From assembly GCF_902705875.1 (NCBI RefSeq), contig NZ_CACSIK010000005.1, forward strand, positions 1-58,274: a DNA stretch of 58,274 nucleotides, in the 5' to 3' direction. Position 1 is the first letter of the stretch. Each line of letters begins with the position of its first letter. The notes beneath the pieces are model-generated. The model had not been told where the DNA came from. It saw only the letters and a program-made list of their open reading frames with translations, and did no database searches. Position numbers and translations under genes: made by a program. This DNA comes from Zhongshania aliphaticivorans (lineage in GTDB: Bacteria > Pseudomonadota > Gammaproteobacteria > Pseudomonadales > Spongiibacteraceae). Shown here in pieces: positions 14,512 to 42,360 of this stretch.

Positions 14512-14523
14512 GGGGGTGTCGTT

Positions 14524-15762: not shown

Positions 15763-15772
15763 GGGAATGGAT

Positions 15773-17377: not shown

Positions 17378-17398
17378 TAAAAAAGAAAAAATAATAAT

Positions 17399-17434
17399 GT
17401 CGTAAATTAACAGTGAAAGGGTCGGTAATGATCA
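17399..17434 (+). promoter_or_regulatory. Putative AraC operator D
   Basis: Half-sites GTCGTAAATTAACA (17399) and GTCGGTAATGATCA (17421) start 22 bp apart and agree at 10 of 14 positions; both fit GTC-N9-CA. The upstream half repeats operator C exactly. It lies 135-170 bp before the RND permease gene, in the same orientation as sites A and C relative to their targets. The downstream half is embedded in a perfect palindrome (17421-17442). Confidence 0.65.
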
Positions 17435-17442
17435 TTACCGAC
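17421..17442. repeat. Perfect 22-bp palindrome
   Basis: GTCGGTAATGA followed directly by its exact reverse complement, with no spacer. It could be a dimer-binding operator overlapping operator D, or fold into the terminator of the CoA-ligase operon, whose stop codon is 44 bp upstream. A T-rich tail is absent (ACATTGCTCTTC follows), which favours a protein-binding site. Confidence 0.6.
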
Positions 17443-17568
17443 ATTGCTCTTCAAGGCTAATATCAATTCTAAAATAGATCAGTAATAAATGCTGATAAGT
17501 TGATAGAACAATATTTATATAAAAGTTAATAATTACAATTTATTACATTGATAGGGTAGCCAACCTTA

Positions 17569-20022: not shown

Positions 20023-20096
20023 TGGATTTTATTTATTATTCCGTTTTTCAATGCGCAAGATGACAACAATAAAAGGGTTTATCCCGGAGGAATATG

Positions 20097-21476
20097 ATGC
20101 ACATTAAAAAATATGATACCAACTTTAGTCGTCGTCGTTTTATGGAAAACACGATTAAAGGCATAGGGGCTGGTGGTGTTTTGGCACCATTGTGGCCACT
20201 GATTGCTAATGCAGAAGATACTAGCAAGGCTTATCCAGATGAGCTGTTATCCATCGAAATGTATACCAAAGGTAAAGTGAAGCCCGGTGACGTGATAACG
20301 GCTGATAATGTTGAACACGTTAAAGACTTGCTTGACCCCATTGCATATAAGCATGTCAAAGAAATGGGGCGTCGTATTCATATTGTTGAACCTGTGAAAG
20401 ATGTGTCGCGCATTTTCCCGACAGAATATTTAGAGGCAACACTTAAAAACCAAGGTAAAGCGGTTATTGGTAAAGACGGTAATGTGTATACCAAAAGTGG
20501 GGAGCCTTGGATTGGTGGTACGCCTTTCCCTGAGCCAAAGAATGGCGTTGAAGCACAATACAATTTAACCCTGAGTTGGGGACGTCATGATTATTCCCAA
20601 TATGCTGTGCGAGATTGGGATATCGATTCTTCTGGGGGTTTGTCTTATCAATACGATTTTGTGTGGACGGAATTGAATACTACGGCACGTACTGATGGCA
20701 CTGTATGGAAAGGTAAAAAAGACTTACTGCGGTATCAATCAGTTTTCTTTACTGCTCCAAACGACAGTGCAGGTACGTCGTTCCTAAATATCTGGGATTA
20801 CGATCAACGTAAATTTCCCGAGCTGCACGGTTATATTCCCGCTTTCCGTCGCGTCCGTCAGTTCCCTACTAACCAACGCTTTGAGCCGCTGGTTCCCGGT
20901 ATTACTCTATTTTTATCAGACGCTTGGGCAGCTGGTGACCCACTGCAAACGTGGGGAAATTATAAAATTATTGGCCGTCAACCGATGTTGGGTGCGATAG
21001 GTTCTCGAAACTTTCATGGTGGCTACCATGATAATTGGGAGAAACCTGTTCATGGCGGCCCAAAAGATCAAACATTCTTTGATACTTATATGGAGCTTGT
21101 GCCTGAATGTATTGTTCTTGAAGGCGAGCCTACTGGCTATGCGCGAGCACCGGTTGGTAAAAAACGGGTATGGATTGATGTTCGCAATCAAATGTATGTT
21201 GCTTACGTTATTTATGATCGTCGCGGCGAAATTTGGAAGTCGTTTGAGCCGCATTACGCCATGCAGGACAACGATAAAATGACACGTAATGACGGCGCGC
21301 ATCCTGCGTGGTCGTGGTCCAGTGTGCATAGCCATGATATTCAATCTAATCGCATGAGCCGATTTGTTCAGGCTAAGTCTGTCACCGGTGGTTATCAAAG
21401 TAATTACGATCCGGGCGATGTTGATGTCTTTAATAAATACCTTACTGTTCAAGCCATGCAGCGCCTTGGGGGTTGA
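20097..21476 (+). CDS. DUF1329 protein with Tat-type signal (copy 1)
   Basis: A 459-residue exported protein of the DUF1329 family, whose members are predicted periplasmic or outer-membrane lipid-handling proteins (a LolB-like fold is my recollection). The N terminus has FSRRRFMEN followed by a hydrophobic stretch ending near IANAE, a twin-arginine signal rather than a plain Sec one. GGAGG lies 6 nt before ATG 20097 (only 3 before 20094). Shared family blocks include YPDELLSI, LNIWDYDQRKFPELHGYIP and LSDAWAAGDPLQTWGNYK. It follows the RND gene by 74 bp and precedes the propeller gene by 1 bp. A full-length paralogue lies at 24463. Confidence 0.85.
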   Translation: MHIKKYDTNFSRRRFMENTIKGIGAGGVLAPLWPLIANAEDTSKAYPDELLSIEMYTKGKVKPGDVITADNVEHVKDLLDPIAYKHVKEMGRRIHIVEPVKDVSRIFPTEYLEATLKNQGKAVIGKDGNVYTKSGEPWIGGTPFPEPKNGVEAQYNLTLSWGRHDYSQYAVRDWDIDSSGGLSYQYDFVWTELNTTARTDGTVWKGKKDLLRYQSVFFTAPNDSAGTSFLNIWDYDQRKFPELHGYIPAFRRVRQFPTNQRFEPLVPGITLFLSDAWAAGDPLQTWGNYKIIGRQPMLGAIGSRNFHGGYHDNWEKPVHGGPKDQTFFDTYMELVPECIVLEGEPTGYARAPVGKKRVWIDVRNQMYVAYVIYDRRGEIWKSFEPHYAMQDNDKMTRNDGAHPAWSWSSVHSHDIQSNRMSRFVQAKSVTGGYQSNYDPGDVDVFNKYLTVQAMQRLGG

Positions 21477-21477
21477 T

Positions 21478-22428
21478 GTGGACGTAATCGCGAAGCTTGT
21501 CCGGTGTGGGATGGGACTACTTGTTATTACTGTAATCGGTGCTGCAAATGCAGCGCCGTTGCAGGGGCAGCTAGTGAACCGTGGGCATGCACATGAGGCA
21601 TTATTTGCCGTCAATGCCAGTAGTGAGGGTCTCATTGCTGTTGGAGGTGGCGGGCAGATAAGTACCAGCAAAGATGGCGAAAATTGGACAAGGCTTGATA
21701 TAGACCTTGCTGGAAAATCATTGTTGGCAGTGTCTGATCTTGCTGGTAACGCAATTGCTGTTGGTCAGCAAGGCGTCATTGTTCGCCGTGATGGCAGTGG
21801 GTGGCATGAGCAAACCTCACCAACAACAGAGCGCTTATTTTCTGTGGCTCAGGATGGCGAGGGGTTTGTTATTGCCTCCGGTGGCTTTGGTACGGTGTTG
21901 CGGTCTGTTGATGGTGGCATACATTGGGAAAAGTTAGCCATTGATTGGCAGGCACTCATCGGGCAGTCCTATGAGCCTCATGTTTATAACGTGACGGTTG
22001 ATGATCGTGGGCGAGCATACATGGTTGGAGAATTTGGCATGATCGCTAGGTCAGACGACCAAGGGCTTACATGGCAGGCACTGCACAGTGGCGATGAATC
22101 CTTATTTGGCTTTTCTCTAGGCGTGGACGGCTTGGCGTATGCAGTAGGTCAAAGTGGCACTATTTTACGCAGTCGTGACGCGGGGCTTAATTGGGAGAAA
22201 ATAAGCTCGGGCAGTGAGGCTATTTTGCTTGATGTATCTATCCGTAGCGATGGTCGCGCTGTTGTGACAGGCATTCGCGAGGGGCTATCAATCGGTGCAG
22301 AAGACAGCAAGGCAACTCGTTTGGAAGATTCTCCCCTTTTAGTGTCTTGGTATTGTGATGTCAGTGTTTATAAAGGTGATTTTTATGTGGTTGGCGAAAA
22401 AGCCAATGTTATAAAGCTCTCTATTTAA
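21478..22428 (+). CDS. YCF48/BNR-like beta-propeller, exported
   Basis: A 316-residue protein. GTG at 21478 starts 1 bp after the previous stop, behind a G-rich ribosome site (GGGGG), and gives a good Sec signal ending IGAANA-AP. The mature part is a string of about six blades, each with G-x-I/V-x-R/T-S-x-D-x-G-x-x-W (for example VGGGGQISTSKDGENW, GEFGMIARSDDQGLTW, GQSGTILRSRDAGLNW), the YCF48/Hcf136 photosynthesis-assembly-like repeat. Such proteins regularly sit beside RND, DUF1329 and DUF1302 genes, and I infer a scaffold or assembly role in that periplasmic complex. Confidence 0.83.
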   Translation: MDVIAKLVRCGMGLLVITVIGAANAAPLQGQLVNRGHAHEALFAVNASSEGLIAVGGGGQISTSKDGENWTRLDIDLAGKSLLAVSDLAGNAIAVGQQGVIVRRDGSGWHEQTSPTTERLFSVAQDGEGFVIASGGFGTVLRSVDGGIHWEKLAIDWQALIGQSYEPHVYNVTVDDRGRAYMVGEFGMIARSDDQGLTWQALHSGDESLFGFSLGVDGLAYAVGQSGTILRSRDAGLNWEKISSGSEAILLDVSIRSDGRAVVTGIREGLSIGAEDSKATRLEDSPLLVSWYCDVSVYKGDFYVVGEKANVIKLSI

Positions 22429-22452
22429 AATATGTGTTGGAGATATATGGGT

Positions 22453-24363
22453 ATGAAAAATAATAATCAGTTAGCGGCAGCTATTACCCTTGCCACTCTT
22501 GGGGTTAGCAATCCCGCGTGGTCGGCGAATGGTGAGTTATTTGGTATTGACTACAGTTCAAGCGGCTTTATTCGAGTCGAGGCGGCTGCGAAAACGGTTG
22601 GTGATGAGAATCCCTTTAATCAGCGCGGTAATATTTTTAACGGTGAGACCATCGATCGAGATGGTGGTGTCAATGCTGGCACCTTGTTGGGCCTTAATCT
22701 ACCTATTGCGGTCGGCGTACCTATTACCGATCAGGCGACTCGCAATGGCGAGCCTGCAAATAACGATTTTAATTTTACCCAGGTTCGTTTGGAAAATACC
22801 TTGCAATTAAGGTTTAGTGATAACTGGTCTGCGACGGTAAAGTTACGCGGTATTTTTGATGCAGCGCAATATGATGAATTTGATCCCAATAGTGTAAATA
22901 GTGATGCAGCAGGGTATTTATACGGTGAGCCAAATTATTTTGAATACGATGATTATGAAACCGGCGGCGAGCAGAATCGCCTTGAAGTAGCTGGTGATAA
23001 TTACATGATCGATTTTCCATCTCTCTATGTGGATTATCAGAATGGGCCAATTTTGGTGCGCGCTGGTAATCAACAAATAGCGTGGGGACAAGCACTGTTC
23101 TTTCGGGTAATGGATGTAGCTAACGGTTTGGACTTGCGGCGGCATTTAATATTGGACTTCGCTTCCGAAGAATATGCCGACGAACGTATTTCATCACCAG
23201 CTGTGCGTGTTTCTTACCAGTTAACCCCTAGCTGGGAGCTGGATATGTTTGCGCAAGCATTTCAGCCAACCATATATGCAAACCCCAATACGCCATATAA
23301 CGTCATCCCTAGTCAGTTTACTGTTCATGATCGCTATAGCGACGCCAATGAAAAGATTAATAGTGGTTTTAGGCTGAAAGGTAATGTCGGTGATTTTGGT
23401 CTGCAATTTATGTACACCAATCGCTATAACCCTGACGGGGTTATTCGCTGGACGGCATCAGGTGTTAATCGTGATGCACCGGGTTTGCCTGGTACAGGCG
23501 CCATTCTAGCACAGACACCGCTAGAGGTTGATTCTACCGGCGTTTGGAGCGCGGAAGAATGGTTTACTTATGCCAGTATGGCGCGCTTAGATGGAACCGA
23601 AGGTTTAAATAAATTAATTACTGACTTCCCAGCTTCTCAGCTTTTATTGGCTAGACCGGTAAATGGTATAGATGCTGCAAAGGAAGAGCTAGATTTGTTC
23701 TTTATTCTAACGGGTGGTGTGGTTAATAGCCTGACGACAGGCCAAGGCATGGGCGGCTTGCGAGGCCATATCGAGCGAGAATATAAGCGGGAAGATATTT
23801 TTGGTACGGGCTTTAGTTACATCTTTAGCGGTGAGGCGGGCAGCTGGCTTGATCAGTTAATCCTTAACTTTGAAGTGTCTTTCACGCCAGATCGGGTGTT
23901 TACCTCGCCTGATCTTGGTCAGGAATATTTGGTTGAAGATGAGTATATCTCTGCATTGGTATTGGAAAAGTACCAGCGTTTTAGCCGGAAGTTCCCTGCA
24001 ACGTATTTCGTCTTTCAGTGGATGCATCGCACCGAGAGCGATTTATTTGGCCGTCATCTGAGTGGTATGGGTGGGTCAGCAAACAATACACCTGAAGGTG
24101 TTGATGCTTGGGATGGCTTGGTGTTGGCAATTCAACAGCCGTTCCCCGGTTTGGTGTGGCGAGCTGATCTCTCAGTGCTGTACGACACGCGTGGAGGGAT
24201 CTATGTTCAGCCAGCGCTTAAATGGAAGCCTAGTGGTAATTGGAATATTGAGGCCTTTTACAGTTATATCGATGACGATTTAAGCGCTAATGCCAATGAA
24301 AATATTATGCAGACGTTTGATTGGGCTGAAGAGTTTGGTTTGCGGGTTGCTTATCAGTTTTAA
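22453..24363 (+). CDS. DUF1302 outer-membrane beta-barrel
   Basis: A 636-residue protein starting MKNNNQLAAA with a Sec signal ending near NPAWSA (ATG 22453; ATG 22447 is also possible, as GGAG lies between 4 and 10 nt upstream). The body shows alternating amphipathic strands, few charged helices and a C-terminal aromatic strand (FGLRVAYQF), the mark of an outer-membrane porin. DUF1302 proteins almost always pair with DUF1329 genes and are linked to hydrophobic substrate use. It is the probable outer-membrane gate of the local transport path. A strong hairpin with a T-tail ends the operon at 24375. Confidence 0.85.
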   Translation: MKNNNQLAAAITLATLGVSNPAWSANGELFGIDYSSSGFIRVEAAAKTVGDENPFNQRGNIFNGETIDRDGGVNAGTLLGLNLPIAVGVPITDQATRNGEPANNDFNFTQVRLENTLQLRFSDNWSATVKLRGIFDAAQYDEFDPNSVNSDAAGYLYGEPNYFEYDDYETGGEQNRLEVAGDNYMIDFPSLYVDYQNGPILVRAGNQQIAWGQALFFRVMDVANGLDLRRHLILDFASEEYADERISSPAVRVSYQLTPSWELDMFAQAFQPTIYANPNTPYNVIPSQFTVHDRYSDANEKINSGFRLKGNVGDFGLQFMYTNRYNPDGVIRWTASGVNRDAPGLPGTGAILAQTPLEVDSTGVWSAEEWFTYASMARLDGTEGLNKLITDFPASQLLLARPVNGIDAAKEELDLFFILTGGVVNSLTTGQGMGGLRGHIEREYKREDIFGTGFSYIFSGEAGSWLDQLILNFEVSFTPDRVFTSPDLGQEYLVEDEYISALVLEKYQRFSRKFPATYFVFQWMHRTESDLFGRHLSGMGGSANNTPEGVDAWDGLVLAIQQPFPGLVWRADLSVLYDTRGGIYVQPALKWKPSGNWNIEAFYSYIDDDLSANANENIMQTFDWAEEFGLRVAYQF

Positions 24364-24374
24364 TTTTTCTAGCT

Positions 24375-24399
24375 GTCGAGGGTGATGCCCTCGACTTTT
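24375..24399 (+). terminator. Intrinsic terminator after the DUF1302 gene
   Basis: An 8-bp stem GTCGAGGG/CCCTCGAC with a 5-nt loop and a TTTT tail, 12 bp after the DUF1302 stop. Confidence 0.8.
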
Positions 24400-24422
24400 G
24401 TCTAAGTAATAACGGGACCTTT

Positions 24423-24448
24423 CCGGCGGATTTTCCGCCGGCTTTTTT
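24423..24448 (+). terminator. Second intrinsic terminator, just before a start codon
   Basis: A 7-bp GC-rich stem CCGGCGG/CCGCCGG with an ATTTT loop, then C and six T. It is the stronger of the two tandem terminators and ends only 14 bp before the ATG of the next gene (24463), leaving no room for a promoter between. It may therefore act as an attenuator for the second DUF1329 copy. Confidence 0.85.
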
Positions 24449-24462
24449 CAATAGGGCCGGAC

Positions 24463-25839
24463 ATGGTATTTCACATAAAAAAATATAATCAACACTATGC
24501 TCGCCGTCAGTTTATAAAGAAAACAGCGAGCCTTGCTTTGGGTGGTTTGTTAATGCCGGTTTGGAAAACCATGGCAAATAATGGCGATTTCTCGGCTGCC
24601 TACCCTGATGAGTTATTGTCCATTGATGAATACACTGGAGGAAAGTTATCCCCAGGGAATTATATTGATGCAAGCAATGTTGATCTCGTTAAAGATTTGT
24701 TGGAACCGGTTAAGTATTTTCAGATAAAAGAAATGGGTCGTCGTTTGCGTTTGCGAGAAACGACTCGTGACATTATGAAATTGAGTCCTTGGGAATATCT
24801 AGAAGCGAGCTTTAAAAATCGAGGTCAAGCTAAGTTCGACGAAAAGGGCAATGTGGTGACCTTAGAGGGAAAACCTTGGATAGGTGGCCTCCCGTTTCCA
24901 GAAGCGAAAAATGGTTTGGAGTTATTTGCTGGCTTGACCATGAGCTGGGGGCGGCATGATGCTTCCTTTTACGCTATTCGAGAATATGACTTAAGTCGCG
25001 AAGGGAAAATAAACTATCAGTATGAAAATGGTTGGGCTGAGTACGCACCGACCGGTAGATTGGTGTTACCCGAGGTGTACTGGAAGGGGCATGAAGATAA
25101 ATTGCGCTACCAGAGTGTGTTTTTTTCAGAGCCAGACAGTGTTCGCGGTACGTCGTATTTGAATATTTGGCATTACGATCAGAATAAATTTCCTGATTTA
25201 TATGGCTATATTCCCGACTTTAAACGGATTCGCCGTTTTCCAACCGATCAACGTTTTGAGCCATTGGTGCCTGGCTCGAGCTTATATTTGTCAGATGCTT
25301 GGGCCGCGGGCGACCCCTTACATACCTGGGGGAACTACAAAATAGTGTCGCGGGGGCCAATGTTAGCGGCGGTAAGTGGTGGTTGGAACTCTTCATCTGA
25401 CACCTGGGCGCATACGACACATGGTGGGCCTAAGGGAGAGACATTTTGGGATACCGATGTTGAATTAGTTCCTGAGGCAATTGCAGTTGATGCTGAGCCA
25501 ACCGGCTTTCCTCGCGCCCCTGTCGGGAAAAAGCGGGTGTGGTTTGACGCCCGCACGCAATTGCCGCTAGGCATGGTGTCATTTGATCGACGCGGTGAAA
25601 TATTCCGATCGTTTGATGGTGCCTATGGTTTATATGAAGACGGTGATAAAAAAGTGATGGATGGTAAACATCCTTATTGGTCTTGGGGCCATGTTCACGC
25701 CTTTGATGTGCAAACGGGAAAAATGACACGATTAGAACAGCGGGCCAGCATGAGTGGTGGTCACAAAATGATGGTGAATTCGCATGATATCTATGACCGC
25801 TATTTAACGAACGGTGCACTGCGTCGTTTGGGTAATTAA
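24463..25839 (+). CDS. DUF1329 protein with Tat-type signal (copy 2)
   Basis: A 458-residue paralogue of the protein at 20097, colinear end to end (YPDELLSIDEY, KEMGRRLR, LNIWHYDQNKFPDLYGYIP, LSDAWAAGDPLHTWGNYK). The N terminus YARRQFIKKTASLALGGLL is an even better twin-arginine signal than copy 1. ATG 24463 corresponds to the start of copy 1 and is only 14 bp past a strong terminator, with AGGG as a modest ribosome site. It is followed 28 bp on by the AcuI-like reductase. Two diverged copies suggest heteromers or two ligand ranges for the same conduit. Confidence 0.83.
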   Translation: MVFHIKKYNQHYARRQFIKKTASLALGGLLMPVWKTMANNGDFSAAYPDELLSIDEYTGGKLSPGNYIDASNVDLVKDLLEPVKYFQIKEMGRRLRLRETTRDIMKLSPWEYLEASFKNRGQAKFDEKGNVVTLEGKPWIGGLPFPEAKNGLELFAGLTMSWGRHDASFYAIREYDLSREGKINYQYENGWAEYAPTGRLVLPEVYWKGHEDKLRYQSVFFSEPDSVRGTSYLNIWHYDQNKFPDLYGYIPDFKRIRRFPTDQRFEPLVPGSSLYLSDAWAAGDPLHTWGNYKIVSRGPMLAAVSGGWNSSSDTWAHTTHGGPKGETFWDTDVELVPEAIAVDAEPTGFPRAPVGKKRVWFDARTQLPLGMVSFDRRGEIFRSFDGAYGLYEDGDKKVMDGKHPYWSWGHVHAFDVQTGKMTRLEQRASMSGGHKMMVNSHDIYDRYLTNGALRRLGN

Positions 25840-25867
25840 TATTTAATTTTATGGTGAGGTGAATGGC

Positions 25868-26860
25868 ATGACAGAGACATATAAGGCATTAGTAGCAAAC
25901 CGTCAAAATGGAAAGTTAGCCGTCGGTTTTGAGCAATTAAGCGCAACAGAGATTGGTGAGGGTGATGTCGAGGTTGCGGTTGAATACTCAACTTTAAATT
26001 ATAAAGATGGCTTGGCCATGGCTGATGCAATACCTATTGTGCAAAAGGATAAATTGATTCTGGGTATTGATATGGCGGGGACAGTTGTTCGTTCCGAAAG
26101 CACCCGGTTTAAGGTAGGCGATAAAGTGGTCCTGAATGGCTACGGTGCATCGGAAACCCATAATGGGGGTTACACCCAACGGCTAAGAACTAATAGCGAA
26201 TATTTAGTAAAACTACCTGCAGGTATTAGTACGAGGCAAGCAATGGCGATTGGTACGGCGGGTTACACGGCCATGCTATCGGTAATGCGATTAGAGAGTA
26301 TGGGCGTTGTTCCTGAGTCTGGCGTGGTCTTGGTTACAGGCGCGTCTGGCGGTGTCGGTACAGTTGCTATTTCCTTGTTGTCAGCTTTGGGGTATCGGGT
26401 CACGGCATCGACAGGAAGAATGGATGAAGCAGCCTTTTTGAAAGGCTTGGGTGCTAACGATGTCATTAATCGTGAAGAGCTTTCTGAACCCGGTGAAATG
26501 TTGCAGTCCACCCGTTGGGCGGCGGCGGTCGATTCCTGTGGCAGTCACACCTTGGCGAATGTGCTTTCACAGCTGCATTACAGCGGCGTGGTGACGGCAT
26601 GTGGGCTGGCCCAGGGCTTGGATTTGCCCAGCAATATGATGCCTTTTGCACTGCGGAATGTCTCTTTACTAGGCGTGGATTCTGTTCACGCGCCAATGCC
26701 TTTGCGTGAACAAGCTTGGAGCCGCTTGGCCAAAGATTTGGATATGGCTAAGTTGGAAGCGCTCACTGTCAATATCCCCTTTGAGGATCTTCCAGCGGCG
26801 GCGGGAAAAATTCTACAAGGGCAAATACGTGGTCGTGCGGTAGTTGAGATTGTGGCTTGA
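25868..26860 (+). CDS. AcuI/YhdH-type NADPH-dependent acryloyl-CoA (quinone) reductase
   Basis: A 330-residue medium-chain reductase like E. coli YhdH: EYSTLNYKDGLA near the N terminus, the Rossmann motif VLVTGASGGVGTVAISLL, and VSLLGVDSVHAPMPLREQAWSRL near the end. The zinc-binding cysteines of alcohol dehydrogenases are absent. AcuI reduces acryloyl-CoA to propionyl-CoA. ATG 25868 is preceded by GAGG at 8 nt; a GTG at 25859 overlaps that site. In this setting it may remove an enoyl-CoA by-product of side-chain oxidation, which is inference. Confidence 0.85.
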   Translation: MTETYKALVANRQNGKLAVGFEQLSATEIGEGDVEVAVEYSTLNYKDGLAMADAIPIVQKDKLILGIDMAGTVVRSESTRFKVGDKVVLNGYGASETHNGGYTQRLRTNSEYLVKLPAGISTRQAMAIGTAGYTAMLSVMRLESMGVVPESGVVLVTGASGGVGTVAISLLSALGYRVTASTGRMDEAAFLKGLGANDVINREELSEPGEMLQSTRWAAAVDSCGSHTLANVLSQLHYSGVVTACGLAQGLDLPSNMMPFALRNVSLLGVDSVHAPMPLREQAWSRLAKDLDMAKLEALTVNIPFEDLPAAAGKILQGQIRGRAVVEIVA

Positions 26861-26905
26861 TCAATACGTTATTTTCTAAGAAATTAAAATAATAAGGGCA
26901 TGATT

Positions 26906-27727
26906 ATGAATAAAACACTTTCGGTGTTTGGACTGGAAGGAAAGGTTGCCGTGGTGAGCGGAGCCGCGGCGGGCATTGGTGAGGCTTGTGCTAGGGCTTT
27001 TGCACAGGCGGGGGCTGCGGTAATGTTAAGTGATATTGATGTGGCAGCGTGCGAGCGAATCGCCGCTGAACTTAATGAGCAGGGGTTTGAGGCTAAAGCT
27101 ATCCGTTTGGATGTGACTAGCGAGGCCGACTGGCAGGCCTTAACGGTAGTTTTGCAAGATTGGAAAAACCGCTGGGATGTTTTACTTAATAACGCCGGTA
27201 TCTATATAGGCGGTTTGCTAGAAAATAACAGCAGTGCGCAAGTCAGTAAAATTAATCAGGTCAACATTGAGTCGGTATTTTTAGGTACTCGCACAGCAGT
27301 AGAGTGCATGAAGCCCAATGCGATGTTTGGTCATGGTGGTTCTATCATTAATCTGTCATCAATTGCGGGCTTAGTCGGTGTGCCTGGGCATAGTATTTAC
27401 GGTGCCACCAAAGGGGCGGTTCGATCATTAACAAAGCACAGCGCGGTAGAGTTTGCGAAGTTTGGTTATGGGGTGCGGGTGAACTCTTTGCATCCGGGCT
27501 TAATTGAGACGGCGATGGGCGATCAAGCCTTGCAAGACTTTGTGGATATCGGTGTGGTCCCCAATGTTGATGAGGCAGCTACGCTGCTCAAGTCGGCAAT
27601 GATTCCTATGGGGCGGCTTGGTAATGTCCAAGATATTGCCAATGCGGCTTTGTTTTTAGCATCTGATGCTAGCTCCTATGTAACCGGAGTCGAGTTAACC
27701 GTTGATGGCGGGTTTTGCGCTGCGTAA
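26906..27727 (+). CDS. Short-chain dehydrogenase/reductase
   Basis: A 273-residue classical SDR: cofactor motif VVSGAAAGIGEA, acidic residue in MLSDIDV favouring NAD, LNNAGIY, INLSSIAG, and catalytic YGATK. The C-terminal segment SYVTGVELTVDGGF is typical. It probably oxidises or reduces a hydroxyl or keto group of the pathway substrate, as hydroxysteroid or 3-hydroxyacyl dehydrogenases do. ATG 26906 has AAGGG 7 nt upstream; ATG 26900 is too close to it. A second, related SDR gene follows 14 bp on. Confidence 0.87.
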   Translation: MNKTLSVFGLEGKVAVVSGAAAGIGEACARAFAQAGAAVMLSDIDVAACERIAAELNEQGFEAKAIRLDVTSEADWQALTVVLQDWKNRWDVLLNNAGIYIGGLLENNSSAQVSKINQVNIESVFLGTRTAVECMKPNAMFGHGGSIINLSSIAGLVGVPGHSIYGATKGAVRSLTKHSAVEFAKFGYGVRVNSLHPGLIETAMGDQALQDFVDIGVVPNVDEAATLLKSAMIPMGRLGNVQDIANAALFLASDASSYVTGVELTVDGGFCAA

Positions 27728-27741
27728 GCGCTGGAGGTTTT

Positions 27742-28512
27742 ATGAATTGTCAGGATAAAGTCGCGCTGGTCACCGGTGCTGGTGTGGGAATTGGTGAGGC
27801 AACGTGCAAGGCCTTAGCGGCTGCAGGTGCAACGGTTGTGGTTAGTGATATCGATGAGGCGGCGGGGCTGCGAGTTGCAGATGAGCTTACTGCAGCAGGA
27901 TATCAAGCCACATTTATAGCCTTAGATGTTTGCAATGAGGAACAGTGGCGCACTGTGATTAATGAGGTTGTTGAACGTTTTGGGCGTTTACAAATACTGA
28001 TTAACAACGCAGGCATTGCCAATATTTGTGGAATTGAAGAAGAGACGCTCGAAGGTTGGCGAAAAACAAATACTATTAATAATGATGCTGTGTTTCTTGG
28101 CACCCGTGAAGCAATTCGAGTGATGAAAAATTCTGGTGGCAGTATTGTGAATATTTCGTCCATTGAAGGGATTGTTGGTGACCCGATGCTTCCGGCATAT
28201 AACGCGAGTAAGGGCGCGGTGCGCGCCTTCACAAAGTCGATAGCCTTATATTGCGCAGATCGTGGTTACGGTATCAGGGTGAATTCTATGCACCCCGGTT
28301 ATGTTGCAACACCCTTGGTTAGTGGTGCGCTGGCGCGCCTAAGTGCCAATGATGCTGAAGCATTTGCACAGCGAGTGGTGGCGAGTATTCCAATGGGGCG
28401 AATGGCAGAAGCGGATGAGATAGCTAATGGGGTGGTGTTTTTAGCCTCGGATGATGCGTCGTATATGACCGGTTCGGAACTCATTATGGATGGTGGCTAC
28501 ACAGCACGATAG
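27742..28512 (+). CDS. Short-chain dehydrogenase/reductase (second)
   Basis: A 256-residue classical SDR with LVTGAGVGIGEATCKAL, VVSDIDEA (NAD preference), ILINNAGI, VNISSIEG and catalytic YNASK, ending SYMTGSELIMDGGY. It is clearly related to the preceding SDR, most simply an old tandem duplication. ATG 27742 sits behind GGAGG at good spacing; an upstream GTG-type extension overlaps the previous gene and is unlikely. The substrate is unknown; same operon as the AcuI-like reductase. Confidence 0.87.
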   Translation: MNCQDKVALVTGAGVGIGEATCKALAAAGATVVVSDIDEAAGLRVADELTAAGYQATFIALDVCNEEQWRTVINEVVERFGRLQILINNAGIANICGIEEETLEGWRKTNTINNDAVFLGTREAIRVMKNSGGSIVNISSIEGIVGDPMLPAYNASKGAVRAFTKSIALYCADRGYGIRVNSMHPGYVATPLVSGALARLSANDAEAFAQRVVASIPMGRMAEADEIANGVVFLASDDASYMTGSELIMDGGYTAR

Positions 28513-35438: not shown

Positions 35439-35931
35439 CTGGCTCTAAAACCCATAGTTTGTCGTTGTCGGAATAGTGTGTGCTGAATTGTTTTTCAGGT
35501 CCATTTAAACCATGGTGGCTGAGTAATTCTGCTGGTGCAATATCGAAGAGGGGCCGGAGCACGAAATCTCGCTCAAACATTCGTGGGTGGGGAACTGTCA
35601 ATTCAGGCGATTGAATTATGGCTTGGCCGTACAACAGCAAATCAAGATCTAAGGTTCTTGCAGCCCAGCGTACAGTGCGCTGGCGCTGATGTTGAGCTTC
35701 GATGGCCTGCAGTGTGTTGAGAAGCTTGCTTGCCGTCAGGGTGGTATCAATTGCTATTACCGCATTGACGTAGTCATCTTGCTCGCCTGGACCGATAGCT
35801 ACTGAGCCATAAAGGCGAGATTGCGCTATTAAATGACAGCCGGGTGTGGCAGCAATGGTTTTAATAGCGCTCAAAACTTGTTGCCTGGGTGTATTTAAAT
35901 TGCTGCCCAAGCCAATGTAGCTTCGCGTCAT
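35416..35931 (-). CDS. folK: 2-amino-4-hydroxy-6-hydroxymethyldihydropteridine pyrophosphokinase
   Basis: A 171-residue HPPK of the folate pathway: IGLGSNLNTPRQQV at the start, then RWAARTLDLDLLLYG and VPHPRMFERDFVLRPL, the metal and ATP binding motifs. It transfers pyrophosphate from ATP to the pterin. Its start overlaps the pcnB stop by 4 bp (ATGA type) and its end overlaps the kinase by 23 bp, making a tight operon. Confidence 0.95.
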   Translation of the reverse strand: MTRSYIGLGSNLNTPRQQVLSAIKTIAATPGCHLIAQSRLYGSVAIGPGEQDDYVNAVIAIDTTLTASKLLNTLQAIEAQHQRQRTVRWAARTLDLDLLLYGQAIIQSPELTVPHPRMFERDFVLRPLFDIAPAELLSHHGLNGPEKQFSTHYSDNDKLWVLEPDDKAITS

Positions 35932-37301
35932 CGTGCTTTACGAGGGCCGCGGCGGCGTCGAGTCGGACGGGCTTTATCGCCTGCTGGTACTTGAGTCAGC
36001 ATGGCGCCACGGGTATCGCTGTGTGCTTCTTGAAATGCCAGCCACCACTGCCCAAGTCCTGCTTCTATTTCACCGGCTTGTTCGCGCAGTAATAGAAAGT
36101 CAAAGCCGGCGCGGAAGTAGCGATGGCCTAGCAGTAGTTCTGCCCGTTTACCCGAGCGACGGGTTAGGCGGCTTTGCAATTCCCAGATATCTCGCATTGG
36201 CAGCGAGAAGCGCTTGGGGATGGCAACGGTTTGCTGTTGTTTGTGGAGCACGCGCTCAGCGGCTTGGTGAAGTGCTGGGATTTCTGGCACGCCACTGTCG
36301 ATGATTTCTTTATGTGTCTTTTTGACAACCGGCCACAGTAATACGGCGTAGATAAATGCCGGTGTAACGGGTTTACCCTCGGCAATTCGTGCGTCGGTAT
36401 TGATTAGGCCTTGCTGGATAAGTTCCTCGGCCGCTGATGCGGTTTGATTCAGCATCTTATGGGTGGCTGGGAACAGGGGGCGAAACAAGTCGTAGCGCTG
36501 CATTAGGGCGTAGGTTTGAAGTCCTTGGCCCGACATAAGCAATTTGATTACTTCATCAAACATCCGTGCCGCAGAGATATCTGTGAGTAGCGGCGCCAAG
36601 CGTTTAAGCGGCTCTTCGGTATGTTGCTCGATATCGAAATTAAGCTTTGCGGCAAAGCGTACAACTCGCAACATTCGTACCGGGTCTTCGCGGTAACGGG
36701 TTTCTGGATCGCCGATGATGCGGATTAGTTTCTGCTCTAGGTCGTGCATGCCGCCAACGTAGTCATGAACGCAAAAATCGCGGCTTGAATAATAAAGTGC
36801 GTTGATGCTCAGGTCGCGGCGTGCAGCGTCTTCATCTATTGAGCCGTAGACATTGTCGCGAGTAAGCATGCCAGACTCAGTTCGAGCTGAATTTTTGTTG
36901 CGCTGGGTTGACGTGCTCGGCGCGTCGTGACTACCACGAAAAGTCGTAACCTCGATGACCTCTTTGCCAAAGCGGACATGGACAATACGGAAGCGGCGGC
37001 CAATGATCCTGCTGTTACGGAATGCGCCGCGTACTTGTTCTGGCGTGGCATTGGTTGCTATGTCGAAGTCTTTGGGGTGGCCGCCAAGTAAAAGGTCTCT
37101 TACTCCGCCCCCTACTAAATACGCGTCAAAACCTTCGTCATTTAAGCGGCGGATGACTTTGAGTGCGGCGTCGCTTATATGCTTGCGGGATACGCAGTGG
37201 TCGTCTCGCTGAATGATGGTTGCAGCGCTTGATGTATTGTTGGGTTTGGAAAACTTGTTGGAGATTTTTTTCCAGAGCCCGGTTACAGAGCTAGATGTCA
37301 T
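35928..37301 (-). CDS. pcnB: Poly(A) polymerase I
   Basis: A 457-residue nucleotidyltransferase that adds poly(A) tails to RNA and helps its decay. The active site is seen in YLVGGGVRDLLLGGHPKDFDIAT, followed by EVTTFRG, the RRDLSINALYY motif and the RYREDPVRMLRVVRFAAKL segment. The basic tail RPTRRRRGPRKAR fits RNA binding and marks PcnB from CCA-adding enzymes. It sits downstream of cbrB and the sRNA region, the order known in Pseudomonas. Confidence 0.95.
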   Translation of the reverse strand: MTSSSVTGLWKKISNKFSKPNNTSSAATIIQRDDHCVSRKHISDAALKVIRRLNDEGFDAYLVGGGVRDLLLGGHPKDFDIATNATPEQVRGAFRNSRIIGRRFRIVHVRFGKEVIEVTTFRGSHDAPSTSTQRNKNSARTESGMLTRDNVYGSIDEDAARRDLSINALYYSSRDFCVHDYVGGMHDLEQKLIRIIGDPETRYREDPVRMLRVVRFAAKLNFDIEQHTEEPLKRLAPLLTDISAARMFDEVIKLLMSGQGLQTYALMQRYDLFRPLFPATHKMLNQTASAAEELIQQGLINTDARIAEGKPVTPAFIYAVLLWPVVKKTHKEIIDSGVPEIPALHQAAERVLHKQQQTVAIPKRFSLPMRDIWELQSRLTRRSGKRAELLLGHRYFRAGFDFLLLREQAGEIEAGLGQWWLAFQEAHSDTRGAMLTQVPAGDKARPTRRRRGPRKAR

Positions 37302-37431
37302 TGATTTCTGCGTAGCCGATAAATTTTGTAAAGCCGGTATTCTAGCACAGGCGTATTTGTAGTGTTGTTAAAGGAGTGATGGATTTTAGAGGTTAATGAG
37401 TTAGAGCGTGTTGAGGGAAATTGCTAGGGGG

Positions 37432-37464
37432 TAAAACGAAGAAGGGGAAAACAATGTCTTCCCC
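37432..37464 (-). terminator. Intrinsic terminator of the CrcZ-like RNA
   Basis: An 8-bp stem GGGGAAGA/TTTTCCCC (one G-T pair) with a CATTG loop at 37464-37444, followed on the minus strand by TTCTTCGTTTT. Confidence 0.75.
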
Positions 37465-37546
37465 ACCCAGGTCTCTTTGCTTATGTATTATTATTATTCT
37501 TTCTCTATTTTCTTATTATTATTTTCATTTTTTATTATTCTTCGCC
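37432..37546 (-). ncRNA. CrcZ-like Hfq/Crc-decoy small RNA (predicted)
   Basis: In Pseudomonas the sRNA CrcZ, transcribed from a CbrB/sigma-54 promoter between cbrB and pcnB, soaks up Hfq/Crc through repeated AANAANAA motifs and so lifts catabolite repression. Here the same gap carries, on the same strand, a -24/-12 promoter, then nine overlapping AANAANAA matches in three clusters (37542-37529, 37523-37510, 37501-37488; counted by eye), then an intrinsic terminator. The start near 37546 is 12 nt past the -12 box. The product, about 115 nt, would be much shorter than the roughly 400-nt Pseudomonas CrcZ. No open reading frame or ribosome site is seen. Confidence 0.72.
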
Positions 37547-37556
37547 CCTAACATAG

Positions 37557-37572
37557 AGCACTTGCCGTGCCA
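37557..37572 (-). promoter_or_regulatory. Sigma-54 (-24/-12) promoter of the CrcZ-like RNA
   Basis: TGGCACGGCAAGTGCT on the minus strand: GG-N10-GC with the full TGGCACG box and GTGCT against the consensus TTGCW, one mismatch. The upstream gene codes for CbrB, a sigma-54 activator, which makes this its natural target. A CbrB upstream activating site should lie in 37600-37710; I cannot define it. Confidence 0.8.
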
Positions 37573-37709
37573 GCTTTTTAATCTCTTTGTATATCAACAC
37601 CTTACGTTTTTTTGCTAGTTATTATTACTTAGGTGATTATGCGGATTGTTACCTTAATAAACGCCTGTTGTTACGATTACTGGCCTTTGGTAACGCTCGG
37701 CTTGATGGT

Positions 37710-39158
37710 TTATGTTCCTGCGCGAGCACTGACCTTTTTGCGAGGGATTCCAAGCCGTTGACGTCGCTCCCAAAGACATTTTCTGCTCACCCCCAGCTTT
37801 TGGGCTAGTTCGGTTTCGCTCATAGAGTCTTGGTGTTCAAGAACAAAGCGTTGGAAATAATCTTCTAAGGACAGGTCTTCGCTCGGATCGGCGTGATGGG
37901 GTTTGCGCCCATCGCGGCTTCGCGAGTCAGAGTTGGTGTTATTTGTTGGTCGAGAGGGTGAGTCGTTATTACGCCCTCTGATTTGGCTGATATCAACCAG
38001 TTCTAAATCGATGTCGAGCAGTTCGTTGTCGATTTCTTTGCGCTCACACAGTATTACCGCTCGCTCAATGGCATTCTCAAGTTCGCGGATGTTACCCGGC
38101 CATATATAGGTGGTGATGGCCTGAATAGCTTTGGGGCTGAAATGCATTAACGGTTTCTTCATTTTCTCGCAGCGATTTTTGAGTAGTGTCTCTGCAAGCT
38201 CTAAGATATCTTTGCCGCGCTCACGCAGTGGCGGCAATTCTAATTTCATTACGTTAATTCGGTAGTAAAGGTCTTCTCGAAAGTCCCCATCGTGGGCCAT
38301 TTCCTTGAGATCGCGGTGGGTAGCGCAGACCAGCCTAACGTTGACCTTGATTGACTCTACTGAGCCAATGCGGCGTATTTCGTCTTCTTGGATAAATCGA
38401 AGTAGTCGAGCTTGGGCTTCAAGGGGGAGTTCACCAATTTCGTCGAGAAATAGTGTACCGCCGTCGGCGGCTTCAATAAGGCCGGTGCGATTTGCATTTG
38501 CCCCTGTAAACGCCCCTTTCTCATAACCAAAGAGTTCTGACTCTATCAGCGTATCGGGAATGGCGGCGCAGTTAACGCAAATAATGGGTTTGCCTTGGCG
38601 CGGGCTTTGATTGTGGATGGCGCGGGCGACGAGTTCTTTACCGGTGCCGGTTTCGCCGTGGACAAGGACGGTGGCGTCGGTGGGTGCGGCTTTGCGAATG
38701 TAATCATAAAGCTGTTGCATGGCTTTACAGCTGCCAATCATACCGTTGGCGTCGGCAATTTGTTTTCGTTGGTTGCTCGTAGGCTCCAGCGTGTTGACTT
38801 TTTTCTCGCTGCTGGTGGTGCGGATAATACGCTCAACTGTTTCTAGCATTTCGTCGTGATCAAAGGGCTTGGCGATATAATCTATGGCGCCCTTCTTCAT
38901 GGAGTCGACGGCGGATTTAAGACTGGCATAGCTAGTCATAATCAATACCGGTGCATCCGTTTTATTGATTAAGTCGGTGCCCGATGCACCGGGTAGGCGC
39001 AAATCGCTAATGATTAAGGCGTAATCATTAATATTGTAATTGGCAATGGCCTTCGATACGGAGTCCGCTTCATCAACTTGGTAGTCATTTCGCTCAAGCA
39101 GGCGTCGAAGCGCTAGACGGATAACATCTTCGTCTTCGACTATTAGGATTTTAGGCAT
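37710..39158 (-). CDS. cbrB: Sigma-54-dependent response regulator CbrB
   Basis: A 482-residue NtrC-family regulator. N-terminal receiver domain with ILIVEDED acidic pocket, phospho-Asp in LIISDLRLPG and K in AKPFD; central AAA+ domain with Walker A GETGTGKE, the sigma-54 contact loop GAFTGA, and Walker B GGTLFLDEIGELP; C-terminal Fis-type helix-turn-helix ELAQKLGVSRKCLWERRQRLGIPRKK, nearly the same as the Pseudomonas CbrB end. It should answer to CbrA and turn on sigma-54 promoters, foremost the sRNA just downstream. It lies 78 bp after cbrA. Confidence 0.94.
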   Translation of the reverse strand: MPKILIVEDEDVIRLALRRLLERNDYQVDEADSVSKAIANYNINDYALIISDLRLPGASGTDLINKTDAPVLIMTSYASLKSAVDSMKKGAIDYIAKPFDHDEMLETVERIIRTTSSEKKVNTLEPTSNQRKQIADANGMIGSCKAMQQLYDYIRKAAPTDATVLVHGETGTGKELVARAIHNQSPRQGKPIICVNCAAIPDTLIESELFGYEKGAFTGANANRTGLIEAADGGTLFLDEIGELPLEAQARLLRFIQEDEIRRIGSVESIKVNVRLVCATHRDLKEMAHDGDFREDLYYRINVMKLELPPLRERGKDILELAETLLKNRCEKMKKPLMHFSPKAIQAITTYIWPGNIRELENAIERAVILCERKEIDNELLDIDLELVDISQIRGRNNDSPSRPTNNTNSDSRSRDGRKPHHADPSEDLSLEDYFQRFVLEHQDSMSETELAQKLGVSRKCLWERRQRLGIPRKKVSARAGT

Positions 39159-39236: not shown

Positions 39237-42194
39237 CTAGTTTGGCTCGGGCTTACTTAGTGGCAGTCGGATGTGGATACGCGTTCCGTAGGTGCCGAAT
39301 TCCATAACAGGGCTCTCGATACTTACTTCGCCATCGATGTCGTTGATAATGTTGTAGACCAAGGCGAGCCCCAGCCCAGTACCCTTCCCAGGATCTTTGG
39401 TGGTAAAGAAGGGTTCAAATATTCGACTCTGCAACTTTTGATCAATACCCGAACCTTGATCGGTTACGGTGATATGTGTCTCATCGTTTTCGATTCTGGC
39501 ATCTATCGCGATGGTCGCGTTTTCATTGCTCGCATCTCTGGCGTTTGATAGTAGGTTTATGAATACTTGCATTAATTTTTGGTTGTCGCCATCGACAATA
39601 ATGCTCTCAGGGCAGAGGTTGCTATAGAGGATTTGACGGGCCTCGTTGTCCAAGCTAAGTAGCTGAATGGCTTCTGATACACAGTTACGTATGCTGACGG
39701 CTTCGGTTATTTGTGAGCTTACTTCGCGGCCAGTGTGGGCGAAGTTGACCAGGGTGTGGACTATGCTACTGATACGCTGGGTTTGTTTAACGATTTGAGA
39801 TGCGGCTTCTAGGGTGTCGGGGTTCTCGGTGTCGTAGCGTAAGTTTTGAGCTAAGCAGGCAATGCCGGTGACAGGGTTGCCAATTTCGTGTGCTACCCCT
39901 GCTGCTAGGCGACCAATTGAGGCTAGGCGCTCTTGGTGAGTGAGCTCATGTTCGAGTAATTGGGTGTCGGTGATGTCTTCGACAACAATAATCAGTTCAT
40001 CGCGGCCCCACATTTGGGATTCGGTGCGATGTAGGTTAAGCCAGCGCAAGCCTTTTTCGGTCTCAACACAAAACTTGCTGCGGTGGAGGTCGCTGCTAGC
40101 AAGAAAGTTGATGAGGCACGCTGCCCAAGGTCCGGGTAAGCCTGTGAGGCGAGAGCCGGTAATCGCATTGGATTTGATGGCCGTAATGTCGGCCATTGAG
40201 GTATTCCATAGCAATATTTCTTGGTCGTTGCCTAAGGCGCAAACGCCAATGGGAAGGTCTTCTAGGGTTTGGCGATGATAGCGACGTAAGCTATCAAGGT
40301 CGGCAGCGAGCCCGGTGAGATTGGTTTGATAGCGTTCTAAGCGCTCTTCTATATAGGTAATGTCTTCACTATTACCTAATACGCTGTCGGTATAGGGTAA
40401 AACGCGGTCGATCACGCGGCGTGCGCTTGATGGGCCAACCAGTGACGATAAATTAATTTCAATTCTGTCGCGGATGCGGCGTAAAGCATAGGGGCGGGTT
40501 TCTAGCTCACTAAGCTGCAACTCATCGAGTGCTCGTCTGAATTCTTGTTCGGCGGCATGATCCCCCAAGGCCTCTTGTAAGCGTTGTTTTATTTCACCTG
40601 CGGTTTGTAGATTGAGGGTGTGGCGGCTAGGGCGGTTAAGATCGTCTAAAGTACAGGCTTCTGCGGCGCTACGTTCTTCAGATGATGTTTCGCTAAAAAT
40701 CGATACGATGATAAATAAGAGGCTGTTTATACCTAAGGATAAGCTGGCAACAATAACCCAAAATAAGTCGCGGTCTACTGTGTAGGGGTAGAGTTTTTCT
40801 AAGTAAGCAGGGTGGTAGTCACTAAACATTGGCAGTAGTAAACCGAGCCCCCAAACGACAAAGCCTGCACTCAAGCCGCTAATAAAGCCATTGCGGTTGG
40901 CGCGTGGCCAATAAAGTACGGCGAGTACACCAGGTAAAAATTGTAGGCAGCCGCAGGCAGAGGCCATGGTCAGACTGGTAAGGGTTTGGGTGTCTCCTAT
41001 AAATTCATAAAAGACAAAGGCAATTAAAATGATTGCGCAAATCAGCAATTGGCGAGTCATTAATAGCCAGCGGTAAATATCCACCTCGCGGCCTTTGGGG
41101 CGAAGTACTGGCAAGACAATATGATTTAAGCTCATTGAGGCGAGTGCGAGGGTGGTGACAATGATGGCTCCACTCGCCGCGGATAAGCCACCTAGGTAAA
41201 TTAGTGTGGTTAACCATAGGTTGTCGAAATTTAGTGATAAGCCCAGAGCGAAATAACTCGTTGTTATGTCGAGGCCGGCGGCTTTTCCAGCCCAGAGTAT
41301 GGGGAGAACGGGTGCACTTATAATAAGTAAAAATAAGGGGAGGCCCCAGCTAGCGGTAACAAGGTTTTGGCGGCTGGGATTTTCTGCAAATAACATGTGG
41401 AAGACGTGGGGCATACAGACGGATGCAGCGAAAAACATGATAAGCATAAGTCTGCTAGTGTCGGCGGCTTGTGGGGCGCTTAAATTGTTTACTATTTGCG
41501 GGTTGGCATTTAACCATTCCTGTAAGCCGCCAAAACCACCGAATACAGTATTTACGGCAATGATGCCGATTAATACGATGGCCAGCATTTTAACAATAGA
41601 CTCAAAGGCGAGTGCCACCACAAGTCCGCGATGACTGTCTTTGGAGGCAAGATTGCGTGAGCCAAATAGAATTGTAAATACAGTGATGACGACGCAGAAA
41701 AGTAACGCGGCGAGGTTTTTAAAGCGAGAGTGGTCGGCGTTTAATGCGTCGCCAACACTTAAGATCAAGGTGGAGTCAGAGACAATTTTTATTTGTATAG
41801 CAAGCAGTGGCCAAACGGCAAGTGCCAAAAATAGGGTTGCAATAGAGCCCACCCAAGAGCTGCGAAAGCGGAAGCTCAGCAAGTCGGCGAGGGAGTTCAA
41901 GCGATAGCTTTTACAGATTTGGTGTAGGGGCGCTAAAAGTATGGGCAGTAAAATCAGCGCGGCTGAAATACCAATATAATAATTTAGAAAGCTATAGCCG
42001 TAGCGGTCAGCAAAACCAATTGCACCATAAATCGCAAAACCACTGGCGTATACACCAAGTGATAAAACATACACGCTTGGGTGATTGACGAGGCGTGAAG
42101 GTAGTAGTTGGCGTTCGGTGGCGTAGGCAATGGCAAATAAGAGTAATAGGTAGCCAATACCAATAAGAAAGAGTGTGTTGAGGCTAAGGGGCAT
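39237..42194 (-). CDS. cbrA: Sensor histidine kinase CbrA with SSS transporter domain
   Basis: A 985-residue protein fusing a sodium/solute-symporter-like region of about 13 helices (residues about 1-500) to a linker, a PAS domain (about 620-720) and a kinase core: H-box GVAHEIGNPVTGIACL, N-box NLLSNARDAS and G-box GKGTGLGLALVYNII. The Pseudomonas homologue, of very similar length, senses or transports histidine and sets carbon-nitrogen balance. I start at ATG 42194, which overlaps the upstream cbrX-like stop by 11 bp; TTG at 42227 has no ribosome site. Confidence 0.94.
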   Translation of the reverse strand: MPLSLNTLFLIGIGYLLLLFAIAYATERQLLPSRLVNHPSVYVLSLGVYASGFAIYGAIGFADRYGYSFLNYYIGISAALILLPILLAPLHQICKSYRLNSLADLLSFRFRSSWVGSIATLFLALAVWPLLAIQIKIVSDSTLILSVGDALNADHSRFKNLAALLFCVVITVFTILFGSRNLASKDSHRGLVVALAFESIVKMLAIVLIGIIAVNTVFGGFGGLQEWLNANPQIVNNLSAPQAADTSRLMLIMFFAASVCMPHVFHMLFAENPSRQNLVTASWGLPLFLLIISAPVLPILWAGKAAGLDITTSYFALGLSLNFDNLWLTTLIYLGGLSAASGAIIVTTLALASMSLNHIVLPVLRPKGREVDIYRWLLMTRQLLICAIILIAFVFYEFIGDTQTLTSLTMASACGCLQFLPGVLAVLYWPRANRNGFISGLSAGFVVWGLGLLLPMFSDYHPAYLEKLYPYTVDRDLFWVIVASLSLGINSLLFIIVSIFSETSSEERSAAEACTLDDLNRPSRHTLNLQTAGEIKQRLQEALGDHAAEQEFRRALDELQLSELETRPYALRRIRDRIEINLSSLVGPSSARRVIDRVLPYTDSVLGNSEDITYIEERLERYQTNLTGLAADLDSLRRYHRQTLEDLPIGVCALGNDQEILLWNTSMADITAIKSNAITGSRLTGLPGPWAACLINFLASSDLHRSKFCVETEKGLRWLNLHRTESQMWGRDELIIVVEDITDTQLLEHELTHQERLASIGRLAAGVAHEIGNPVTGIACLAQNLRYDTENPDTLEAASQIVKQTQRISSIVHTLVNFAHTGREVSSQITEAVSIRNCVSEAIQLLSLDNEARQILYSNLCPESIIVDGDNQKLMQVFINLLSNARDASNENATIAIDARIENDETHITVTDQGSGIDQKLQSRIFEPFFTTKDPGKGTGLGLALVYNIINDIDGEVSIESPVMEFGTYGTRIHIRLPLSKPEPN

Positions 42195-42360
42195 TGCGGC
42201 GCTGCTGATAGAGGCTGATATAAACAAAAAGAATAATTAGCAACCATACCGCATGATGTCGATACCAAAGTGTACTGGTTTCGTTTAGCCAGCGACCAAG
42301 CGTTGGTGTATAGATAAAGGCAAAGGTGGCTAAAAGCAGTAAAGATGAGTGAATTTGCAT
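42184..42360 (-). CDS. cbrX: CbrX-like small membrane protein
   Basis: A 58-residue frame, ATG at 42360 to TAG at 42184, coding MQIHSSLLLLATFAFIYTPT near the start, a middle WYRHHAVWLLIILFVYISLY helix and a basic end QQRRNAP. Two hydrophobic helices make it a small inner-membrane protein. Its last 11 bp overlap the cbrA ATG, so cbrA translation is probably coupled to it. Pseudomonas has a small gene, cbrX as I recall, in this place. Sequence identity to it was not tested; the assignment rests on position, size and topology. Confidence 0.75.
   Translation of the reverse strand: MQIHSSLLLLATFAFIYTPTLGRWLNETSTLWYRHHAVWLLIILFVYISLYQQRRNAP

Follow-up and report, generated by a model that had tools for sequence, protein, structure and literature searches.

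The window, which is the whole stretch of 58,274 nucleotides analysed here and probably comes from a marine bacterium, carries cbrA, cbrB, pcnB and folK in this order on its minus strand, and the element studied lies in the gap between cbrB and pcnB, the place that the preliminary description had given for a CrcZ-like RNA and the position of the CrcZ-type decoy class. Along the minus strand the gap holds half-sites, a sigma-54 box, clusters of the A-rich motif AANAANAA, the element AGACCTGG, a hairpin and a U-rich tail, in that order. The features, with conservation given for 22 loci of the family, were as follows.

39237..42227, minus strand: cbrA, sensor histidine kinase with a long N-terminal part (kinase models match from residue ~620 onward)
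37710..39158, minus strand: cbrB, NtrC-type response regulator of 482 aa with phospho-acceptor D52 and a GAFTGA motif (named by synteny with cbrA and pcnB and by the Pseudomonas gene order)
37690..37694, minus strand: CbrB subsite F1 (GTTAC); CGTTACC is invariant in the 22 family loci
37670..37674, minus strand: CbrB subsite R1 (GTAAC), 20 bp from F1 (sequence and family alignment)
37647..37652, minus strand: CbrB subsite R2 (GTAACA), 22 bp from R1 and 80 bp upstream of the -24 box (sequence and family alignment)
37557..37572, minus strand: sigma-54 promoter TGGCACGGCAAGTGCT, reading 37572-37557; TGGCAC is invariant in 22/22 family loci
37432..37546, minus strand: predicted RNA of ~115 nt (start set from the -12 element, end from the hairpin)
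37529..37542, minus strand: A-rich cluster 1, three AANAANAA, five consecutive ARN triplets (motif scan)
37510..37523, minus strand: A-rich cluster 2, three AANAANAA, five consecutive ARN triplets (motif scan)
37488..37501, minus strand: A-rich cluster 3, three AANAANAA, within a run of six ARN triplets (motif scan)
37467..37474, minus strand: AGACCTGG, invariant 8-mer ahead of the hairpin (family alignment)
37444..37464, minus strand: terminator-like hairpin GGGGAAGACATTGTTTTCCCC (folding of relatives)
37432..37443, minus strand: U-rich tail, TTCTTCGTTTTA (sequence)
37339..37350, minus strand: separate pcnB promoter -10 region, containing TGCTAGAAT (mean identity 0.93 in 22 loci; promoter reading by eye)
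35928..37301, minus strand: pcnB, poly(A) polymerase, the downstream neighbour (gene list and family models)

None of the family models that matched the window's cbrB product was specific for CbrB, and its name depends partly on the gene order of Pseudomonas. The start of cbrA was annotated as TTG and the true N-terminus is uncertain; its N-terminal part presumably contains a transporter domain, as in Pseudomonas CbrA. PcnB of the window was 83-90% identical to PcnB of the loci named Zhongshania, so that this genus is the probable source of the window.

The -24/-12 promoter (GG-N10-GC) proposed before was found as TGGCACGGCAAGTGCT at 37572-37557 of the minus strand, so transcription would be expected to start at 37546, a G. 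Upstream of it F1, R1 and R2 were arranged with spacings within 20-25 bp, and their half-sites were invariant in the 22 loci. This three-part CbrB enhancer and a conserved AGACCTGGRTGGGG element at the hairpin were both absent from the preliminary description. At crcZ of P. putida, the CbrB subsites are described as TGTTAC/GTAACA in the order F1-R1-R2, 20-25 bp apart (PMC6296734).

The nine AANAANAA matches in three clusters that had been reported were recovered by a scan of the window (37542-37529, 37523-37510 and 37501-37488), and with runs of 5, 5 and 6 ARN triplets they constitute several putative A-rich sites for the Hfq distal face, where six such triplets fill one hexamer (PMC6422490, PMC4063720). 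A tenth match of the gap (37619-37626) lay outside the feature, upstream of the promoter. The whole window contained 90 matches, more than any of 100 shuffles (63.6 +/- 8.0, at most 84), and the densest other group listed in it comprised five. A 151-nt fragment of CrcZ with three A-rich stretches was reported to give three Hfq shifts (PMC4063720). A coding tract in the A-rich part was dismissed by eye, the ATG frame having seven codons and not being common to most of the aligned relatives.

The hairpin followed by a U-rich tail was likewise present as claimed, with GGGGAAGACATTGTTTTCCCC at 37464-37444 and TTCTTCGTTTTA as the tail, which is U-rich and has no strong U run, making a modest terminator. 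A stem of at least 4 bp was formed at GGGG in 125 of 126 distinct 3' segments, a count that leans towards stems because the sequences were folded singly and GGGG was part of the selection. Among these segments inner pairs were altered on both sides, e.g. by replacement of A-U with G-C at pairs five and six; RNAalifold on the alignment of the 22 family loci gave no two-sided changes, since the family is too uniform, and it is the wider set that shows them. In the predicted fold of the window's own sequence the 5' end was paired with the tail and part of cluster 1 was covered, and 5 of 200 shuffles folded equally well; as a general feature this pairing was set aside, being by eye particular to some sequences. 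Titration of Hfq offers no account of the invariance of AGACCTGG at 37467-37474.

Within the family 22 loci from 21 genomes were searched and the element was found every time. The -24/-12 box and the A-rich tract, which had been proposed for comparison among relatives, were kept in 22/22 of these loci and also beyond the family. Five or more bases in a row were invariant at F1, R1, R2 and TGGCAC, at the AATAA core of two of the three A-rich clusters (1 and 2), and at AGACCTGG, TGGGGA and TTCCCCTT. Mean pairwise identity was 0.70 in the enhancer, 0.52 in the interval from enhancer to promoter, 0.80 in the sigma-54 promoter, 0.75 in the A-rich tract, 0.89 in the link and hairpin, 0.30 in the following spacer and 0.93 in the pcnB -10 region; conservation thus peaks at the functional parts, and the spacer behind the hairpin is not conserved. 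The design TGGCAY-N6-TGC-N60-90-GACCTGGRTGGGG, a pattern composed after the relatives had been seen, had a single match in the window and none in 100 dinucleotide shuffles.

All three partner genes whose presence had been proposed as a check, crc, hfq and rpoN, were identified in the genome, hfq and rpoN in one copy each, and the core of Hfq was close to that of P. aeruginosa. The crc gene (L004:1405-2187) was located between rph and pyrE, and the best solved relative of its product was P. aeruginosa Crc (206 bits). Another candidate, L002:1492-2262, was rejected as Crc and read as a DNA-repair paralog, since it matched Neisseria exonuclease III better (312 bits versus 230) and had the full catalytic set. 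Thirty-three Crc-class proteins were aligned; the fetched locus showed a pyrE match for every one of them and an rph match as well for 30. The class was set by synteny and residues because some members, including the Pseudomonas-type L236, score no higher with the Crc of the window's genome than with its ExoIII. The catalytic set E-D-N-S-D-H was kept by 0/33 Crc-class proteins but by all 18 ExoIII-type proteins, and K135, K139, R140 and R141, which contact RNA in the reported cryo-EM complexes of Crc (PMC6422490), were kept in 33/33. Crc of the window's genome lacked the Pseudomonas dimer-interface residues R229, R230 and F231 as well as K155, W161, E193 and R196, so the assembly of Hfq with Crc may differ here. 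In two genomes of one family (G127 and G375) no Crc-class protein was present among the matches at E <= 1e-25.

Rfam gave no CrcZ match in the window at gathering, and RF01675 had none at E <= 10 over 37200-37800, in line with the expectation that the long CrcZ model would miss the element. The covariance score of at least 95 bits was not reached, and the predicted length of 115 nt is not the ~400 nt (398 model positions) of RF01675; for these two reasons the element was not filed under that family. Two other Rfam matches, tpke11 (E 0.08) and sR084 (E 5.4), were far below their gathering scores and were dropped. Elsewhere, Rfam CrcZ was above its cut-off in 2/20 loci of one set and 2/20 of another.

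A covariance model was built from the 22 family sequences and run on 390 genomes of the order Pseudomonadales (E <= 0.01). Matches were obtained in 101 genomes, distributed over 36 of 142 genera, which is a lower bound because stricter filters were used. A CbrB match (E <= 1e-125) existed in 284 of the 390 genomes and 114 of the 142 genera, and all 101 RNA-positive genomes were among them (hypergeometric p 3e-17, a value that ignores kinship and calls CbrB by E-value alone). For 40 matched places from 39 genomes, chosen to cover families, the flanks were cbrB and pcnB in 32 cases, cbrB only in 2 (L072, L089), pcnB only in 3 (L079, L082, L083) and neither in 3. In two of the pcnB-only cases, L082 and L083, the RNA preceded pcnB in a stretch that lacked cbrB, and their genomes (G199 and G178) have a CbrB match. 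Among the places with neither neighbour, L088 was a weak match between the genes of ferrochelatase and Hsp33, while L065 (74 bits) and L071 (70 bits) seem to be unlinked copies. These two strong copies (L065:3062-3198 and L071:583-719) had no cbrB or pcnB in the fetched stretch, that of L065 adjoins an AcrB-type pump gene, and they are perhaps CrcX/CrcY-like paralogs. More than one match was observed in 25 of the 101 RNA-positive genomes (L060, L062, L063, L067 and others), some being full tandem copies with their own sigma-54 box and others possibly pieces of a longer RNA or unlinked.

Twenty cbrB-downstream gaps were also taken from genomes with no model match. TGGCAY-N6-YGC was present in 20/20, together with GTTAC or GTAAC and with 2 to 38 copies of AANAANAA versus 0.4-1.3 expected at the window's rate; one of them, L271, had only two A-rich motifs. 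Since sigma-54 box and AANAANAA occur in all of them, these gaps probably also contain such an RNA in a longer or diverged form.

With the exact pattern TGGCAY-N6-TGC-N60-90-GACCTGGRTGGGG, at least 118 stretches holding 119 places were collected from named genomes. Because selection already demanded a sigma-54 box, GACCTGG and GGGG as the 5' arm in these 118 stretches, only synteny, the A-rich motifs and the 3' arm count as independent. Among the matches listed, 101 places stood, in the correct orientation, behind cbrB and ahead of pcnB, 9 had cbrB only, 1 had pcnB only and 8 had neither. Each of the 111 places beside cbrB and/or pcnB (again among the matches listed) had at least two AANAANAA, whereas the other 8 had none; these lie in MAGs labelled Bacteroidales, Roseomonas (3), Desulfobulbus, Roseicyclus, Planctomycetota and Anaerolineae, and having neither motif nor neighbour they serve as a built-in control. 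The genera of the 111 include Zhongshania, Spongiibacter, Litorivivens, Dasania, Halioglobus, Haliea, Luminiphilus, Pseudohaliea and Chromatocurvus. The module of cbrB, putative decoy and pcnB therefore seems to be spread through the order, so that the compact RNA of the preliminary description stands, while its restriction to one lineage does not: it is part of an order-wide series of cbrB-pcnB RNAs. Two clusters per RNA were counted in 85 of the 111 relatives listed (a Halieaceae-rich set), three in 23 and other numbers in 3, so three clusters are not the least, at least among these pattern-found matches. The enhancer order F1-R1-R2 occurred in 39 of 110 upstream regions of pattern-found loci versus 0 of 2200 simple shuffles; strict half-sites were absent in 34 and incomplete in 37 of the 110, all counted among the matches listed. 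The Rfam family P36 (RF01679) coincided with the CbrB F1-R1-R2 subsites at L268:166-227 and L287:137-197, so P36 may represent DNA of the enhancer instead of a small RNA in its own right.

The sensor kinase gene was missing beside cbrB in some relatives. Asp52 was kept in 84/84 readable CbrB proteins with adjacent cbrA, and among 13 readable CbrB without it, 11 had Glu52 and 2 had Asp52 but had lost an acidic-pocket residue; 10 loci could not be judged for cbrA, and its absence refers to the place beside cbrB only. The loci with Glu52 were L109, L125, L142, L163, L167, L201 (named Luminiphilus), L124, L183, L213, L214 and L120, and those with Asp52 and the changed pocket were L154 and L195. 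In nine listed loci with no adjacent cbrA, gluQRS and dksA were also found. The decoy promoter was still present in loci of this type, and for this reason CbrB and the RNA seem to stay linked there.

We hold it to be very probable that 37432..37546 is a compact CrcZ-type Hfq decoy RNA. Promoter, enhancer, sites and hairpin, together with conservation, synteny and the genes for Hfq, RpoN and a non-catalytic Crc, can all be read from the sequences. By analogy with Pseudomonas, where CrcZ was reported to titrate Hfq in P. aeruginosa (PMC4063720), the RNA would be transcribed, bind Hfq/Crc, titrate them and respond to carbon. When preferred carbon is short, CbrA would activate CbrB, which would bind the three half-sites and drive sigma-54 RNA polymerase from 37572-37557. 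The ~115-nt product, consisting of almost only three Hfq distal-face sites and then the terminator hairpin, could bind up to three Hfq hexamers together with the Crc attached to these, and catabolic mRNAs with the same A-rich motif at their start would be freed.

CrcZ of Pseudomonas and Azotobacter (RF01675; with CrcY and CrcX) shares with the element the place between cbrB and pcnB, the sigma-54 promoter and the AANAANAA sites, and the three CbrB subsites of Pseudomonas CrcZ are described in the same F1-R1-R2 order with 20-25 bp spacing (PMC6296734). However, P. aeruginosa CrcZ is given as 407 nt with six A-rich stretches (PMC4063720), against ~115 nt and three clusters here. The Hfq/Crc sites of amiE-type mRNAs of P. 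aeruginosa are reported as the same ARN-triplet runs fitting the Hfq distal face (PMC6422490, PMC4063720), although they are start regions of mRNAs and the element here is predicted to be a free RNA. From CrcZ the element differs also in GACCTGGRTGGGG, which is present here but was missing in the gaps of three Pseudomonas-type loci that Rfam recognises (L093, L268 and L287). Decoy RNAs of the CsrB/RsmZ type are small RNAs which titrate the RNA-binding repressor CsrA/RsmA, with GGA hairpins and under GacA control; the titration principle is alike, but the protein, the GGA hairpins and the GacA control differ from the element here.

The conserved 3' module bears also on a different reading, by which the RNA acts mainly as a base-pairing small RNA: the invariant AGACCUGGRU beside the hairpin would be its seed for target mRNAs, and the A-rich tract would do no more than recruit Hfq. 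The invariance of AGACCTGG in 22/22 loci and the presence of GACCTGGRTGGGG in 15 of 32 gaps fetched from other families are stricter than a terminator needs, but A-rich RNAs were found with no exact GACCTGGRTGGGG in the remaining 17/32 and in 20/20 gaps without a model match (0/20 with GACCTGGRTGGGG), the two or three A-rich clusters of most relatives (among the matches listed) are beyond the need of one Hfq, and titration is suggested by the crcZ position and by the synteny with cbrB, which makes the base-pairing role unlikely. In most loci the RNA precedes pcnB and points the same way, which would suit a leader or attenuator of that gene instead of a free RNA. Yet the hairpin is followed by a strongly conserved -10 region of pcnB itself, the distance from promoter box to pcnB match runs from 124 to 1005 bp (among the matches listed), tandem copies with their own sigma-54 boxes exist at L060, L063 and L067, the RNA of L089 follows cbrB with no pcnB in the fetched stretch, and the strong copies of L065 and L071 lie elsewhere, so that a leader is very improbable. 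A chance A-rich spacer beside a sigma-54-like sequence, for which the A+T-rich intergenic region might speak, is hardly credible in view of the 0/100 shuffles, the conservation map, the two-sided stem changes and the synteny.

For the decoy RNA so preferred, the class of mechanism is known, and what is new is a compact variant with a much wider range than the relevant passages of a 2022 review state (PMC8871633). In these passages the order cbrA-cbrB-crcZ is described only in Pseudomonas and Azotobacter, and synteny is said to make the Cbr system unique to Pseudomonadaceae (PMC8871633). The range was rated wider because of this limit and because no contrary paper was found, a search of titles and abstract openings in the open-licence PMC literature giving no CrcZ/CbrB-type RNA outside Pseudomonadaceae. 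Rather tentatively, the module of CbrB, decoy RNA and pcnB might be an old order-wide trait, of which Pseudomonas CrcZ would be one enlarged descendant; the invariant 3' module AGACCUGGRUGGGG would have a second function (base pairing or a further protein), and some Luminiphilus-like lineages with no adjacent cbrA and with Glu for Asp in CbrB would have a kinase-independent decoy. If true, Hfq titration by a CbrB-driven RNA would be an order-wide carbon switch that includes marine lineages such as Halieaceae and Spongiibacteraceae, and a natural size series, with six stretches in P. aeruginosa, three clusters here and two in 85/111 relatives listed, could show how few Hfq sites suffice.

Candidate target mRNAs were also observed in the window, where AANAANAA overlaps the start regions of an acyl-CoA ligase gene (15767) and a short-chain dehydrogenase gene (26900). 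The motif upstream of the start was kept in 12/13 ligase and 8/13 dehydrogenase orthologs among the matches listed, the sets leaving out the low-identity ligases L300, L301 and L303 (of 16) and the dehydrogenases L316 and L318 (of 15). As part of the ligase motif is the end of the preceding gene, and as a plain listing gives 15 frames of the window with AANAANAA near a possible start, the link of these two genes to the putative decoy is suggestive only. Both genes lie in the region 13180-28512, probably a cluster for the degradation of lipids or steroids, in which several genes have A-rich motifs at their starts.
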